25,174 nt of DNA from a virus. Position numbers and translations under genes: made by a program. Each line of letters starts with the position of its first letter. The stretch's first letter is position 1. The DNA is taken from the IMG/VR virus record IMGVR_UViG_3300017917_003245, positions 1-25,174 of that record. One strand, written 5' to 3'. Positions 15,909-22,362 of the stretch are shown here, in pieces. Under the pieces are notes generated by a model. It was not told the origin of the DNA, did not search any database, and saw only the letters and a list, made by a program, of their open reading frames with translations.

Positions 15909-16157
15909 TTACATCATACCTTGCATTGGATTTGATTCTTCTTTATCTTCAATTTTTTCATAAATTACTGACTCAGTTGTCAATAATGTACCTGCAACTG
16001 AAGCTGCATTCTCTAAAGCTACACGAGTTACTTTTTTAGGATCGATAATACCATAAGTTTTAAAATCCATTGTTCCTAAATCCTTATAATTAAGACCTAC
16101 CCAATTGCTTCCTTTTTCTGAATCAGTTAATTTGGAACCTAAAAATTGAACTTCCAT
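15909..16157 (-). CDS. groEL: GroEL C-terminal segment in a shifted frame
   Basis: These 82 codons hold the last part of Gro[21 protein letters not shown] supplies the conserved Asp of the nucleotide pocket and is followed by [12 protein letters not shown]. The C-terminus NPMQGMM replaces the usual Gly-Gly-Met tail. The frame is -1 relative to the main groEL reading frame and overlaps it by 19 bases. An ATG at 16157-16155 could start it, but a stand-alone C-terminal fragment of a chaperonin makes little sense. More likely this is the remainder of one groEL gene broken by a single-base deletion, a sequence error or a ribosomal frameshift. Joined to the upstream part, the protein would be about 545 residues, the normal GroEL size. 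Confidence 0.85.
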
Positions 16158-17545
16158 AGATCATGTCCTGCGTTAGTTAAAATCTTAGCAAATGGAGCTC
16201 CTGCGGCTCTATAAACAATTTTCTTACCGTTTACAAAATCATTTGAACCTTCAAATGTAATTGCTTTTCTAGCATACATTAAAGCTGTACCACCACCAAT
16301 TACAATTCCTTCTTCAAGAGCGGCTTTTGTAGCGAATAAAGCATCTTCTACTCTATCTTTTTTCTCTTTAATTTCTAATTCACTGTTACCACCAACATTA
16401 ATGATAGCTACTCCTCCGATTAATTTACCTAAACGTTCTTGTAATTTTTCTTTTTCAAATGGTGAACCAGCATTATCAATCTGAATTTTGATTTCTTCAG
16501 CTCTTGCTTTAATAGCTTCTTCAGAACCTTTACCGTCTACAATAGTTGTTTTTTCTTTACCTACAATAGCAGTACGAGCTTGACCTAATACTTGTTTTAA
16601 AGTAGCTACATCAATTTTATCTAACTTATGTCCTTTATCTTTTGATAAAACTTGACCGCCAGTTATGATAGCTAAATCCTCTAATGCCATTGTTCTTCTA
16701 TCTCCAAATTCAGGAGCTTTAACAGCAGCTACTTTTACAACCCCTCTTGCTTTGTTAACAATTGTTAAAGCTAAAGCTTCACCATCAATATCCTCAGCTA
16801 CAATTAATAATGCTCTTGTTTCTGAGTTAGCTAATGTTAATACATTTACTAATTCATTTACATTACCAATTCTACCATTGTAGATTAAGATGTATGGATT
16901 GTCTAATAACGCGTTCATAGTGTTATTATCAGTTACAAAATAAGGTGATTTGTAACCTCTATCAAATTGCATACCCTCAACAATCTCTAAAGATGTTTCT
17001 CCAGTTTTTGATTGTTCAATAGCTACAATTCCATCTCTACCCACTTTTTCTAAAGCAGTAGCAATTAAATTACCCACTTCCTCATCATTGTTACCAGATA
17101 TAGTAGCAACTTCTTTTATTTGTTGATTATCCGAGATATCTTCTGTTAGATTCTCTAAAGCTGATTTGATTTCCTCTACAGCGGCATCAATCCCTTTTTT
17201 AATTTCAACTGGATTTTGACCTGCAGATACATGTTTTAATCCTTCTTCTAGAATAGCGTGAGCTAAAACTGTTGAAGTAGTTGTACCATCACCTACTAAA
17301 TTACCAGTTTTGATTGATACTTGTTTTACTGCTTGTGCTCCAATTGATTCTACTTGATCTTCTAAGTCACCAAATGCTTTAGCAACTGATACACCATCTT
17401 TAGTGATGGTTAATTGACCTTGATTGTCCTTAATTAAAACTGTTCTACCAGCTGGACCTAATGTTGATGCTACACTATTGTTTAGTTTCTCAACACCTTT
17501 TAATAATTTACCTTTTAATTCTGTTCCGAATACCGTTTCTGTCAT
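16139..17545 (-). CDS. groEL: Chaperonin GroEL (60 kDa), main part, interrupted near the 3' end
   Basis: GroEL forms the double-ring folding chamber that works with GroES and ATP. These 468 residues contain the equatorial and apical domains in the right order: [10 protein letters not shown] near residues 30-40, [15 protein letters not shown] with the catalytic Asp-Gly-Thr, [22 protein letters not shown] and [19 protein letters not shown] followed by IVIGGG. It ends after NAGHD with the unrelated LWKFNF and a TAG. The C-terminal equatorial strands lie in the -1 frame. NAGHD then MEV in the other frame aligns well with the NAGxxPSVV of GroEL, suggesting a lost base near 16160; one extra T in the T5 run (16141-16145) would also restore the frame. 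groES precedes it by two bases, as in bacterial operons. Confidence 0.93.
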
Positions 17546-17547
17546 AA

Positions 17548-17841
17548 TTAATCTTCTATAATTGATGGAATATTATTTTGTGCTATGATAAGGTAGTCTA
17601 CATTATCAATTTTAATTTTTTGTGCTCCCATAGGAGGAATTGCAACTTTCATACCTACTTTTAAATCTGTTGGAATGAATTCACCTTTATGGTAATTGTA
17701 AACATCAGATACTGCTACAACTTCAGCTATAAGTGATCTATCATCACCCATATCAGGAATGATAATATTACCTACTGTAGTTTCAGTTGTCTCAATCTGC
17801 TTTAAAATAATATTACCATCTCTTGGTACTAATTTACTCAT
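17548..17841 (-). CDS. groES: Co-chaperonin GroES
   Basis: This 97-residue protein caps GroEL. It begins KLVPRDGNIILKQIE, matching the GroES start in which PRDxRVxVK is followed by a basic-acidic strand. The mobile loop that docks on GroEL is ETTVGNIIIPDMGDD (about 20-34). AEVVAVSDV and VGMKVAIPPMGAQKIKIDN form the barrel, and DYLIIAQNNIPSIIE is the C-terminal strand. It is diverged from bacterial GroES but full length. It overlaps the upstream 100-aa gene by eight bases and precedes groEL by two. T4 encodes only a co-chaperonin substitute (gp31) and borrows host GroEL; this phage carries both parts. Confidence 0.9.
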   Translation of the reverse strand: MSKLVPRDGNIILKQIETTETTVGNIIIPDMGDDRSLIAEVVAVSDVYNYHKGEFIPTDLKVGMKVAIPPMGAQKIKIDNVDYLIIAQNNIPSIIED

Positions 17842-18136
17842 AGTTCATTAAAGTTTTTAATTGATTTATTGTTGATTCTAATTCTTTAAGATACTCTTTT
17901 AGAGTATAAGTTGTTTTTTTCTCTATAACCTGCTCTTTAGCTATACGTCTTAACGCACTAGGTAATTGAGAGTAATACCCTATTACCTTTTCTTTCTGAG
18001 TATCAGGTTCAGTGAAAACTAAATTATAACTACTTTCATCAAATACTATTTTATAATCACCTAAAAGTGGATCAGAAATAGTTGATGTCTTTTTGATAGA
18101 CCCTTTTTGTCTACCTTTGAAATTTGGATTTGCCAT
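17834..18136 (-). CDS. Uncharacterised 100-aa protein with a basic N-terminus
   Basis: I cannot assign this 100-residue protein to a known family. Its N-terminus is basic with a GRQKGSIKK stretch, somewhat like an AT-hook or RNA-binding tail. The middle has DPLLGDYKIVFDESSYNLVF (beta strands), and the C-terminus is helical (YTLKEYLKELESTINQLKTLM). Similar layouts occur in small phage proteins of unknown role. It starts 68 bases after hsp20, behind a leader ending AATAAGTTATATG, and overlaps groES by eight bases. It is thus translated with the chaperonins. Whether it is a chaperonin partner or a replication factor is not known. Confidence 0.7.
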   Translation of the reverse strand: MANPNFKGRQKGSIKKTSTISDPLLGDYKIVFDESSYNLVFTEPDTQKEKVIGYYSQLPSALRRIAKEQVIEKKTTYTLKEYLKELESTINQLKTLMNYE

Positions 18137-18183
18137 ATAACTTATTTATTTGATTTAATGTACGTAAGAATAAACCGATAACC

Positions 18184-18203
18184 AAACTCTTGGGCGAGAG
18201 TTT
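18184..18203 (+). terminator. Hairpin with a T-run, oriented against the genes
   Basis: AAACTCT (18184-18190) pairs with AGAGTTT (18197-18203) around the loop TGGGCG. On the plus strand the stem runs straight into TTTTTT and more T-rich sequence, the form of an intrinsic terminator. The genes, however, lie on the minus strand, where no U-run follows the stem. It may stop antisense transcripts entering the 3' end of hsp20, or act only as an mRNA end-stabilising hairpin. Confidence 0.5.
18186..18198. repeat. 13-base element, inverted partner upstream of hsp20
   Basis: The plus-strand sequence ACTCTTGGGCGAG lies after hsp20 and overlaps the hairpin. Its inverted partner (12 of 13 bases) is at 18676-18688, before hsp20. 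GC-rich words such as GGGCGAG are rare in this AT-rich window, so a matched pair around one gene is notable. Confidence 0.55.
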
Positions 18204-18204
18204 T

Positions 18205-18612
18205 TTATTTAATTTTGATAGTTTTCGGTTTAGCTTTTTCAGTAATAGGAATAAAGATTGTTAGTAAACCATTTTCTAGTTTACCATCAGCTTTACTTAA
18301 ATCATATTTACTTGAAATTTTATAACCTAAATTAAATGATCTTTTTGCTAGACCATTTACAATTGTTCCTGAATGGAATGATTTCTCGTCTTCAGGTTTT
18401 TCGTAACTGATTTTTAAGATATCATCTTCGATATCTACTTTTACATCATCTTTAGTTAGACCAGTACATGCTACTTCAAAGTGAAGGCCTGTTTCGTCAT
18501 AATAGATGTTTAAAGGGTGTGGTTGTTTTGTAGTTGAGGCAGATAAGAATCCGCTTGTTGGGTGGAAAAAGTTATGGAATAAAATGTCCCATTCATTGAA
18601 ATTTGTACTCAT
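18205..18612 (-). CDS. Small heat shock protein (Hsp20/alpha-crystallin)
   Basis: A 135-residue ATP-independent holdase. The alpha-crystallin domain runs from about residue 32 to 125: NIYYDETGLHFEVACTGLTK, DVKVDIEDDILKISYEK and FNLGYKISSKYD. The signature ADGKLENGLLTIFIP follows, with the usual A-x-x-x-N-G-L. The C-terminal KTIKIK carries the I-x-I motif used for oligomer assembly. Small heat shock proteins occur in several T4-like cyanophages and marine phages. Here the gene opens the chaperone block. Two gaps flank it (95 bases before, 68 after), both holding inverted repeats, so it may be expressed as its own unit. The start lacks a Shine-Dalgarno sequence. Confidence 0.93.
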   Translation of the reverse strand: MSTNFNEWDILFHNFFHPTSGFLSASTTKQPHPLNIYYDETGLHFEVACTGLTKDDVKVDIEDDILKISYEKPEDEKSFHSGTIVNGLAKRSFNLGYKISSKYDLSKADGKLENGLLTIFIPITEKAKPKTIKIK

Positions 18613-18707: not shown

Positions 18708-19430
18708 CTACTCATGTAAAGCTACTAAAAAATATTCAGATATTACTCCTTCTTCTTCTAAATTGATTTTCAATAAACCATCTTTAAATAGATAAGCCTT
18801 ACCATTAGCACTTTTAGCTACAGAAACTATTTCCCTGAAATTAGCAGCGCTAAATGATACAGGTTTTAATTGGTTTATAATAGTCCCAGCTTCAGTAAAG
18901 GTTACTTTATTAGAATAAGTTGATTTTTCACCTACCATAAAACTAACTACTTCTTCACCTTGAAAATCTTTAGTTACACCTATTTCAAAACGAGGTGGTT
19001 TATCTAAAGCGTTATGTGCTTTAATATATTTTTGAGTAAAATCAAAGTTAATATCAAATTCTAAATCATGTGGTGGTAAGTTTGGTACTACACCTGGATC
19101 CTGAATTAATCCTAAATCACTTAAATTATATGATAGATCAAATTGATTATCACTAATATGAAGTTTTAAAAAGTGATTACCTTGTTTTTCTAATTTTAAC
19201 TCAATATACTCATTTGTAATATTAAGTAATTTTAGTAATTGAGCAGTATTAAAAATACCAATCTCACAATCTTCTAATTGTACAGGTGCTTTTATTTCAC
19301 CAATACAGTCTTTATTGTCAGTAGCAAATTTAATGTGTGCTTCATTATTTTTAACTTTGAATTTAACTTGAGTAGCTAAACCATTAAGGTAAAAACTTTC
19401 GATTAATTGTATTAATAACTTTTTTTCCAT
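18708..19430 (-). CDS. 45: Sliding clamp, gp45-like
   Basis: The 240-residue protein has the size of T4 gp45 (228), the ring that tethers polymerase to DNA and, in T4, also activates late transcription. Features fit the two-domain clamp fold: an N-terminal helix (LLIQLIESFYLNGL), alternating strands (VKFKVKNNEAHIKFATDN), an interdomain stretch rich in Pro (GVVPNLPPHD) and a second domain ending YLFKDGLLKINLEEEG with a final strand SEYFLVALHE. It follows the C-terminal polymerase gene directly (stop, one A, then ATG) and ends at TAG. Position next to polymerase and clamp loader genes supports the call strongly. If this phage uses clamp-dependent late transcription, the partner proteins are outside the window. 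Confidence 0.9.
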   Translation of the reverse strand: MEKKLLIQLIESFYLNGLATQVKFKVKNNEAHIKFATDNKDCIGEIKAPVQLEDCEIGIFNTAQLLKLLNITNEYIELKLEKQGNHFLKLHISDNQFDLSYNLSDLGLIQDPGVVPNLPPHDLEFDINFDFTQKYIKAHNALDKPPRFEIGVTKDFQGEEVVSFMVGEKSTYSNKVTFTEAGTIINQLKPVSFSAANFREIVSVAKSANGKAYLFKDGLLKINLEEEGVISEYFLVALHE

Positions 19431-19431
19431 T

Positions 19432-20367
19432 TTAGTTGAATGTGAAGAATTTATTTATTAAAGGATTTGATGGTGGTAATACCCACTCTAAATCATCATA
19501 GAACCCTTGTAGTTTATTTTGTAATATAGTTTCAAAACTTTTTTCTCTATCAATATACTCATTAATAAAATCTTTAATTTTATCAGGCATATCAAATTCT
19601 AGAAAAGCTATAGCTTCCATTTGGTATGGATTTGATTTTAAGTAAACCCACTTAATTTTATCACCCTGTACAATTTGACTATGTTCTTTATCTAACTGCC
19701 AGAATCTTAATAAGTCATTATAACAAGTAGCTGCTTTAACATTTGCACCCGCACCTTTTTTAAGTGTAGATAAAATTTTACCTGGTTTAGGAACTGCTTC
19801 AACATAATCATTTAATACCTTAACTGATGTTGGATTACCAATTAAAGTAAAATCTATATTAGGTCCAGTTGATTCATTTCTAAAATCTTGTATTTTTTTA
19901 TCAATTATATTTTGTGGAGTACCTTTAATAATTAACTCTAATATCTCTTGATAAAATTTACCAAAATATTTAGGGAAGTTAGCTTTTTTAAATTCTAAAC
20001 CTTTAATATCTAAAGTTTCTTTTGCTATACCTTCTTGTTTCGTGATCCACTGAGCATATCGTCTAGTGGCTCTAAAATAGGCTGAACGGATAACACATTC
20101 TGTTTTCATTACTAACCTATGAGTAGGAACGTTAAAACATTCTCTAGCTAATTCATCATAATGTTTAGTAATAATATCCTCATATTTTAAATCAACTTTT
20201 TCTAAGATATCATCTTTTTCTTGATCTTCAAAATCTTCAAAGTTAGGATATAAATGTTTTAATAAAGGTTCAGCATTAAAGTAATTAGAGTCAGTATCCA
20301 CATAGGCGCAGAAATTGAAGTCACCTTCATCACAAATCCACCATGGAGTATCTTCTAAATGCTTCAT
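19432..20367 (-). CDS. 43: DNA polymerase family B, C-terminal subunit (motif C, thumb)
   Basis: This 311-residue protein is the second half of a gp43-like polymerase. FCAYVDTDSNY holds motif C with the catalytic Asp24 and Asp26. KTECVIRSAYFRATRRYAQW matches the region around the conserved KKRYA of T4 gp43. The remainder is the helical thumb. The C-terminus LINKFFTFN is a hydrophobic, Phe-rich tail like the clamp-binding end of gp43. It lacks the exonuclease and motifs A and B, which are on the separate gene upstream; together they total 887 residues against 898 in T4. The first 16 residues (MKHLEDTPWWICDEGD) have no obvious match in T4. It begins one base after the 87-aa gene and is followed directly by the clamp gene. 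The two chains must associate to form an active site. Confidence 0.92.
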   Translation of the reverse strand: MKHLEDTPWWICDEGDFNFCAYVDTDSNYFNAEPLLKHLYPNFEDFEDQEKDDILEKVDLKYEDIITKHYDELARECFNVPTHRLVMKTECVIRSAYFRATRRYAQWITKQEGIAKETLDIKGLEFKKANFPKYFGKFYQEILELIIKGTPQNIIDKKIQDFRNESTGPNIDFTLIGNPTSVKVLNDYVEAVPKPGKILSTLKKGAGANVKAATCYNDLLRFWQLDKEHSQIVQGDKIKWVYLKSNPYQMEAIAFLEFDMPDKIKDFINEYIDREKSFETILQNKLQGFYDDLEWVLPPSNPLINKFFTFN

Positions 20368-20368
20368 A

Positions 20369-20632
20369 TTAAAATGTTCTTTCTCCTGGTACTGGAGGTA
20401 AATTTACTGGTCTATTTCCTCTTGAATCTATATCAGCTCTTTCTTTAAGAGTAATATTATATAACTCACCGTTTACTTTACATTTACCACCTTGTTTAAG
20501 CATTTTCTTAAAGAATGATTCTTGTTGTTCTGTCCAAGTTTCACTTGCCTCAATAATTACTTGTTTATCAACTGGTTTACCATTCTGAGTAATGGTAACT
20601 CCATTTCTAATTGATTGTCCTTTTAATGCCAT
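20369..20632 (-). CDS. Uncharacterised 87-aa protein between the polymerase halves
   Basis: This small protein lies exactly between the two polymerase genes. Its ATG shares one base with the stop of the N-terminal half (TAATG), and its stop is one base before the C-terminal half, so all three are translated in series. The sequence is a basic N-terminus (ALKGQSIRNGVTITQNGK), a helix with Trp (ETWTEQQESFFKKMLKQGG), a beta segment (KCKVNGELYNITLKER) and a Pro-rich end. I see no homing endonuclease motif (LAGLIDADG, GIY-YIG, HNH), no intein motif and no cysteine cluster. It may be a polymerase accessory subunit, or the remnant or passenger of the element that split the gene. Function unknown. Confidence 0.75.
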   Translation of the reverse strand: MALKGQSIRNGVTITQNGKPVDKQVIIEASETWTEQQESFFKKMLKQGGKCKVNGELYNITLKERADIDSRGNRPVNLPPVPGERTF

Positions 20633-22362
20633 TATATCTCTAATTTAATTTCGTTTCTAATAACTTTATTCATGTGTCTATTAGCACAAAGTGCTGATTC
20701 TTGAATAATTCTTTGTCCTGATAAAGTGATGGCTTCTGATAATATAACATTTCCGTATCTAAATGAAGGTAATGCTGTGGCGCCATATAAACTATTTAAT
20801 AGAATTTTCATTGTGTATTGCATCAAATGATATTTTTCACCAGCTACTTTATCACCAGCTTTATAAGATTCTTTCATTTTATTTTTATACAATACCCTTT
20901 CATCAAACCATTTATCTAATATTGTAGATAATACTGATGGATTATCAGTACGGAATATAACACCATTTGCTGAGATAGCCAAATTATATTGTTGAAGTAG
21001 TTTAGCTAATTTTGAACTAGTCCATTCTATTCTATTGAATTTATCTTGGTTAACAAACCATTCTGTAACTCGAGGTTTATCATCAACATCATTTAGTAAA
21101 TCATTCAATCCCAATCGATTGTTTCTATCATTAGGATCTATAATTCTACCTACTAATGTTTCTTTACCAATATTAAGAGACATAATAATTGAAGGATATA
21201 GTGATGTTAAATCCTCATCAAACATGTATCTATATAAACCTGCTTTAGGGCAAAACAAATAACCACCAGCGTAATTAGCTTTTTTAATTGGATTTCTATC
21301 TCTTGATGGAGGTACTATACCTTCTGATAGTAGATAGGCTGAAATAGCGCCATCATGTATTTTTGAAGATTGGTAAACATCATCATAATGAATTTTACCT
21401 TTATGAGCTAAGTTTTTCGTTAAACCAATATAATTGAATTTATTATCTAGTGCTTTTAAGATTTCAACGTCTCGGAAGTTATATTCAATAAATTTTTCTT
21501 TATCAGTTTCAAATAATCTATCTAAACTACCCTCATATTCAATTTTAGGCAATTTACAATATTTTTCACCTAAAGCATCTAATTTATAAGAAGGCTCATC
21601 AGACATAGAATATTTTTTATGTAATCTGATATAATCAAGTGAATACATTCCTTCTATTCTAATCGGTTGATCTTCATTCCAGAAAGTCATTCCTGATTCA
21701 TTAGTATGTTTTTGTTCTTTAACTTTACCTATTGGAGATAAAGAATTTGCTCTACGATCACCTAATTGATTTAATATTCTGTAGTATAGATAAGGTATAT
21801 CGAAGTAATCACTGTTATAACCTATTAGTATGTCTGGTTGAACTTTACCTAGATAATTTAACCATTTAGTTAATAATTCTCTTTCATTAGCAACAGGAAT
21901 AATCATTTTATTCCCTACTGTTGTTTTTTCTATATGATTTTGTTTATCTAAAATTAAGATATACCATTTGTCTTGTTGACGGTGCCACCAAGCAATTGAT
22001 GTAACAGGTTTAGGTGCTCTTCTAATATATTCAGGAGTTAAAGCACCCCCCATTTCAATCTCAATATCAAAAAATATCTCTTGATGTGTAGTTGAGGGTT
22101 CATCATTAGTTCCATATTTGTCAATTAGGAATTTTTGATGAACAGGCATGTCATGATAATGAAGGAAAGGATTATTTTTTTCCCAATACGTTACTTTACG
22201 TAAAGATTCTCCTTTTAGACCTAAATGAGTCGCATCTTTTGGATAGCATTTTTCATAAGCATAATTCTGAAATTCATACTGTTCCACTCCATCATCAGTC
22301 CATAAAGTGATAGCATGTCTATTTTTACCCAATGATTGGGTAGTGATGTTTTTATAACTCAT
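20632..22362 (-). CDS. 43: DNA polymerase family B, N-terminal subunit (exonuclease, motifs A and B)
   Basis: The 576-residue protein carries the N-terminal, 3'-5' exonuclease, palm and fingers parts of a gp43-like replicative polymerase. Exo I is FFDIEIE (D99, E101), Exo II is GYNSDYFDIP (N183, D188) and Exo III is YNFRD (Y294, D298). Motif A is DLTSLYPSII (D384) and motif B is KILLNSLYG (K519). It ends 49 residues after motif B, just before the place where motif C should follow; that lies on a separate gene. All catalytic residues for proofreading are present, but polymerisation needs the second chain. AAAGG lies nine bases before the ATG, one of the few Shine-Dalgarno-like sequences in the window. 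The start is 13 bases after the membrane-protein gene. Confidence 0.95.
   Translation of the reverse strand: MSYKNITTQSLGKNRHAITLWTDDGVEQYEFQNYAYEKCYPKDATHLGLKGESLRKVTYWEKNNPFLHYHDMPVHQKFLIDKYGTNDEPSTTHQEIFFDIEIEMGGALTPEYIRRAPKPVTSIAWWHRQQDKWYILILDKQNHIEKTTVGNKMIIPVANERELLTKWLNYLGKVQPDILIGYNSDYFDIPYLYYRILNQLGDRRANSLSPIGKVKEQKHTNESGMTFWNEDQPIRIEGMYSLDYIRLHKKYSMSDEPSYKLDALGEKYCKLPKIEYEGSLDRLFETDKEKFIEYNFRDVEILKALDNKFNYIGLTKNLAHKGKIHYDDVYQSSKIHDGAISAYLLSEGIVPPSRDRNPIKKANYAGGYLFCPKAGLYRYMFDEDLTSLYPSIIMSLNIGKETLVGRIIDPNDRNNRLGLNDLLNDVDDKPRVTEWFVNQDKFNRIEWTSSKLAKLLQQYNLAISANGVIFRTDNPSVLSTILDKWFDERVLYKNKMKESYKAGDKVAGEKYHLMQYTMKILLNSLYGATALPSFRYGNVILSEAITLSGQRIIQESALCANRHMNKVIRNEIKLEI

Follow-up and report, generated by a model that had tools for sequence, protein, structure and literature searches.

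A gp43-like DNA polymerase encoded as two chains cut beside motif C, with a cargo slot between their genes, in a clade of uncultured T4-like phages

We analysed a stretch of 25,174 nucleotides of viral DNA (IMG/VR record IMGVR_UViG_3300017917_003245; hereafter, the window) in which the replicative DNA polymerase is divided between two genes, and a third, small gene lies between them. The locus very probably specifies a working gp43-like replicase, made of two co-translated chains that would assemble non-covalently. The polymerase is cut at this one position in a large set of related phages, while the content of the gap between the two genes varies from lineage to lineage.

RESULTS

Organization of the locus and site of the cut

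From the ORFs, the gene order on the minus strand is N chain (20632–22362; 576 aa), M (20369–20632; 87 aa), C chain (19432–20367; 311 aa) and a clamp-like gene (18708–19430). At the N/M junction, the sequence TAATG has one base common to the stop codon of N and the start codon of M, and a gap of one base separates the stop of M from the start of C; the junctions given in the preliminary description were thereby confirmed. The two chains together have 887 residues (576 + 311), compared to 898 for T4 gp43. It had also been claimed that the N chain holds Exo I–III and motifs A and B, that the C chain holds motif C and the thumb, and that their sum equals a whole gp43. Alignment to T4 gp43 bore this out. 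In the N chain, Exo I aligns at D112 of T4 gp43, Exo II at about residue 216, Exo III at D324, motif A at D408 and motif B at N561; in the C chain, motif C (YVDTDS) aligns at D618 and a KKRY-like motif (RRYAQ) at K703.

The family matches are consistent with this division. The N chain, which has the 3'-5' exonuclease domain, matched the Pfam families DNA_pol_B_exo1 (1e-20) and DNA_pol_B (3e-22), and these two matches were observed in this chain only. PHROG DNA polymerase families matched both chains, PHROG_262 in the case of N (2e-109), and PHROG_262 together with PHROG_1918 in the case of C. A profile of the C chain matched residues 600–898 of RB69 gp43, which comprise the thumb and C-terminal third (E 1e-20). 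By sequence, the locus is a gp43-like family-B polymerase with predicted polymerase and 3'-5' exonuclease functions. In place of the single polypeptide of gp43-like polymerases, two ORFs are present, both in the window and in the 125 related lineages described below.

The cut is located about eight residues ahead of motif C, near residue 610 of T4 gp43. The exact T4 residue is soft; the loop aligns poorly, and the match to RB69 gp43 begins at its residue 600 with residue 3 of the C chain. The spacing from motif B to motif C in one-chain relatives is 58–60 residues in L056, L136 and L095, and 74 residues in L284. As it varies even among one-chain polymerases, this loop appears to be tolerant of length changes. 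The C chain begins with an 18-residue stretch (MKHLEDTPWWICDEGDFN; 20314–20367, minus strand) that is conserved over the 125 split lineages (P8 99%, W9 94%, I11 98%, C12 97%, D16 96% and N18 98%). We propose that this conserved head docks on the N chain. Certain relatives (L113/L114, L124 and L368) have N chains with a longer C-terminal tail that has the common ending ERNI(S/T)PR.

The clamp-like gene directly follows that of the C chain and, as observed from tblastn synteny, stays adjoining it across the relatives. No significant family match to this gene was obtained in PHROG or Pfam; its position and length point to a clamp. The C chain ends in a hydrophobic tail, NKFFTFN, which may serve in clamp binding. 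Genes for GroEL, a GroES-like protein and Hsp20 (15909–18612, minus strand) are located directly downstream of the replication genes, and this order is kept in many relatives.

The split is old and stable

We gathered relatives of N, M and C by IMG/VR scans and removed near-copies to obtain non-redundant lineages; all of these relatives are metagenomic and most of the records are incomplete. A search for the same arrangement in related phage genomes, which the preliminary description had suggested, was successful: the same split, at the same position, was recovered from many independent assemblies, which represent 125 non-redundant lineages. Exo I–III and motifs A, B and C, with their catalytic acidic residues, are kept across the clade in the alignment to T4 gp43, so that both chains retain all of their catalytic motifs. 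The dN/dS values are 0.05–0.18 for N and 0.03–0.17 for C, and low to moderate (0.1–0.5) for M. The distances of the N and C chains are correlated (0.79; 95 lineages). At most of the junctions an ATG overlaps the stop codon of N (53 ATGA-like, 42 TAATG-like), and the next gene is probably translationally coupled to this stop by a stop-start mechanism.

Gene decay or an assembly artefact might be suspected from the state of groEL in the same window (15909–17545, minus strand), which is frameshifted into ORFs of 468 and 82 aa. However, in relatives having both parts, groEL is in one frame, and its frameshift in the window is likely a contig-specific error or mutation, whereas the polymerase split is common to the relatives. 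As the split is found in 125 independently assembled lineages, with conserved motifs and under purifying selection, we give almost no credence to decay or artefact as its cause. We concluded that the split is old and stable. Together with the overlapping junctions, the same data uphold the earlier proposal of stable, probably coupled translation.

In one record of 72 kb (L293; G037), the N chain is followed by a large unrelated gene, and the C chain was not found anywhere in the 72 kb. In L364, the N chain is close to that of L091, but the beginning of the C chain diverges to an unusual degree, as would be expected if recombination had occurred within the C gene.

The same genes occur in metagenome-assembled genomes (MAGs) binned as Flavobacteriales/Flavobacteriaceae and, for some contigs, as Pelagibacter. 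These bins, which can be contaminated, give a weak hint of marine hosts for the clade. A search of 50,697 deposited phage records yielded no close relative of the polymerase (best identity 34–36%) and no significant match to M, and among open-access papers we found none on the split polymerase of this clade.

Two chains or one re-joined product

The two gene products could in principle be re-joined by protein trans-splicing, RNA splicing or ribosomal frameshifting. A split PolB with split inteins has been reported in phage MIJ3 (PMC6892783), and the uncultured phage LR756508, whose polymerase is split at the same place as that of the window, carries an intein at motif B and another at motif C. 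Against this, we observed no intein family match in either chain of the window. The intein search covered N, M and C (Pfam and NCBIfam), and the tail of N and the head of C were also read directly; Rfam gave no intron. Moreover, in 24 lineages the N and C genes abut, and therefore leave no room for an intron. We consider re-joining highly improbable.

The preferred reading is that the two chains remain separate polypeptides. Its assembly step has a precedent: 43A and 43B of Aeromonas phage 25 purify together and show polymerase activity (PMC2988022).

Origin of the split

With one-chain polymerases as the root of the tree, the split lineages fall into one large group. Two one-chain polymerases, L284 and L295, are nested within this group as neighbours of the L018 group (98/96 support); the MAG contigs L365 and L366 have one-chain genes very similar to these. 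When all of the split rows are constrained to be a single clade, the tree is worse by 11.9 log units, a borderline rejection (AU p 0.0499). The simplest reading, and a likely one, is a single split followed by a single re-joining, so that L284/L295 may represent a natural re-joining of the chains; two separate splits are possible. The sequences indicate that the split likely arose in an ancestor common to a large T4-like clade of uncultured phages, most of which retained it thereafter.

No direct trace of an element that made the split was detected in the window (PHROG and Rfam intron searches). We infer a mobile-element origin of the split in this clade. LR756508 suggests that splits of this type can result from mobile elements targeting the B–C region. 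In the unannotated record of this phage (LR756508.1, 257000–270000; L370), one intein is located at motif B and another inside motif C.

The junction behaves as a cargo slot

The content of the gap differs among the 125 split lineages: M is the sole occupant in 40 and is accompanied by other DNA in 59, a different gene without M is present in 2, and the gap is empty in the 24 where N and C abut. The slot thus holds M in 99 lineages and lacks it in 26. Among the other occupants are nucleases of the HNH (L009 and L011), GIY-YIG (L109) and T5orf172 (L051) types, as well as, among others, Smr (L110), SET (L129), DUF6165 (L096) and DUF2452 (L057) genes. Metabolism, including that of sugars, is represented by a DAHP-synthase-family enzyme and a transaldolase (L115) and by a cytidylyltransferase (L086). 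In the window itself, PHROG and Pfam searches found no nuclease gene between the halves. The earlier observation that the spacer has no endonuclease or intein motif therefore holds for the window, but HNH or GIY-YIG nucleases occupy the same slot in relatives. The junction acts as a site of cargo insertion within an operon of essential genes.

M is the usual occupant of the slot and not an obligate part of the polymerase

M belongs to a distinct, apparently undescribed small family with 114 non-redundant members, in whose alignment QxIR, W33 and KMLKQGG are near-invariant. M had no significant match in Pfam, PHROG, NCBIfam or PDB; searches for distant homology gave weak PHROG and Pfam matches only, which differed between members. 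Of two AF2 models (pLDDT 67 and 73), the one at 73 predicts, with moderate confidence, a beta hairpin, two helices, a second hairpin and a tail without predicted structure. The models had no significant Foldseek match in PDB or BFVD. A PAS-domain fold was considered and dropped, the best VIA match (Z 2.6) being too weak.

The preliminary description suggested that M may be a subunit of the polymerase. An obligate third subunit, bridging the chains or completing the palm, would fit its location between the chains in 99 of the 125 lineages, the purifying selection on it and the usual coupling of the gene following N to the N stop. This suggestion was not supported by the comparison of lineages. 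M is missing from the slot of 26 split lineages, in 24 of which N and C abut. Some split records carry it elsewhere (G022, G025 and G028, with neighbours that include queC-like and thioredoxin-like genes), and three of 95–110 kb, which are incomplete, have no M. M also coexists with one-chain polymerases, from which it lies apart, in L098 (record G002), L112 (record G003) and the locus L095; the preliminary description had itself listed this arrangement as one that would count against its proposal. In addition, nucleotide identity between the phages L001 and L002 is 96% in N and 98% in C but only 79% in M. M has been swapped between these near-identical phages, with both polymerase chains unchanged. 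Over 95 lineages, the N–M distance correlation (0.35) is below that of every equally short piece of C (0.52–0.72). By these comparisons M evolves out of step with both chains and is transmitted independently, and we regard an obligate subunit as very unlikely. M is the usual occupant of the slot, and is more likely an accessory protein that is passed on independently and serves phage replication or nucleotide metabolism.

A rival reading, in which M is a facultative helper of replication (acting on the polymerase, the clamp loader or dNTP supply) and not a structural subunit, is possible, though we lean slightly away from it. Outside the slot, M adjoins a clamp-loader gene in L095 and ribonucleotide reductase genes in L090 and L098, which fits such a role but does not show it, and the family is widely conserved under purifying selection. 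On the other hand, M is without a link to a fold or family, gene neighbourhood is weak evidence in genomes as dense as those of phages, and in L112, L105 and L106 the neighbours of M are unrelated. A more speculative and rather unlikely proposal is that the two-chain design serves control: C would dock via its head, an exchangeable M would tune assembly, clamp handover or host compatibility, and M alleles would be swapped as a replication-regulating cassette.

DISCUSSION

A model of the two-chain replicase

In our working model, the two polypeptides would be made from one operon and translated in turn by stop-start coupling, presumably through re-initiation. The N chain would supply the exonuclease and the fingers as well as that portion of the palm in which motifs A and B lie; the remaining palm, with motif C, and the thumb would come from the C chain. 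Non-covalent assembly at the palm would then unite the catalytic aspartates of motif A (from N) and motif C (from C). The cut would have been placed in a loop whose length varies even in one-chain relatives, and the assembled replicase is expected to proofread and to work with the adjacent clamp. After the split, the junction would have turned into a slot for cargo.

Throughout a diverse viral clade, a replicative family-B polymerase can persist as two chains cut beside motif C, and such a two-chain state is not limited to isolated cases. The clade offers natural sets (split, abutting split and one-chain) for probing the assembly of the palm halves, and a natural cut site for two-part polymerases. 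The gap in an essential gene is a cargo slot, into and out of which homing nucleases, metabolic genes and the M family come and go.

Comparison with known split polymerases

Aeromonas phages 25 and 44RR2.8t, like the window, have a T4-type family-B replicase in two chains encoded by adjacent genes, and phage 25 has a GIY-YIG nuclease gene separating 43A from 43B. The preliminary description had cited split gp43 genes of Aeromonas phages as a precedent. The precedent is real (PMC2988022), but the site differs: the Aeromonas split is in the fingers, ahead of motif B, at about T4 residue 510 (43A of 44RR ends at 510), whereas that of the window is at about 610, between motifs B and C. As its site is at about residue 510, the Aeromonas split is independent of that of the window, and the differing position rules out the same event. 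The two differ also in that the split described here spans a large clade and has a slot with many cargo genes.

A cut between motifs B and C is also found in the PolB of LR756508, a 484-kb uncultured phage in which several genes separate the two halves. This phage belongs to a different lineage (nearest to Microcystis phage Mel-JY01 and L056), has the inteins mentioned above and has no M; its sequence indicates that it split its PolB independently at the same place. Mel-JY01 itself has the closest deposited phage polymerase (34–36% identity) but, unlike the window, a single PolB chain of 848 aa and no M.

Other phages are already known to have split polymerases whose halves are separated by an ORF (PMC10580990 and PMC6892783). 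Phage MIJ3 encodes PolB by two genes that flank a nuclease gene (PMC6892783), and differs in its split intein, none having been found in the chains of the window. OM43 phages of the MEP401 type have a split DNA polymerase, but are related to Zobellviridae and unrelated to the clade described here. The archaeon Methanothermobacter thermautotrophicus has PolB in two polypeptides, according to the passage in PMC7776575 that cites Kelman 1999; it is likened to the window by this two-polypeptide state alone. Split polymerases are thus a known kind, and, as far as our tools show, the site of this cut, its fixation across a clade and its use as a cargo slot are new.
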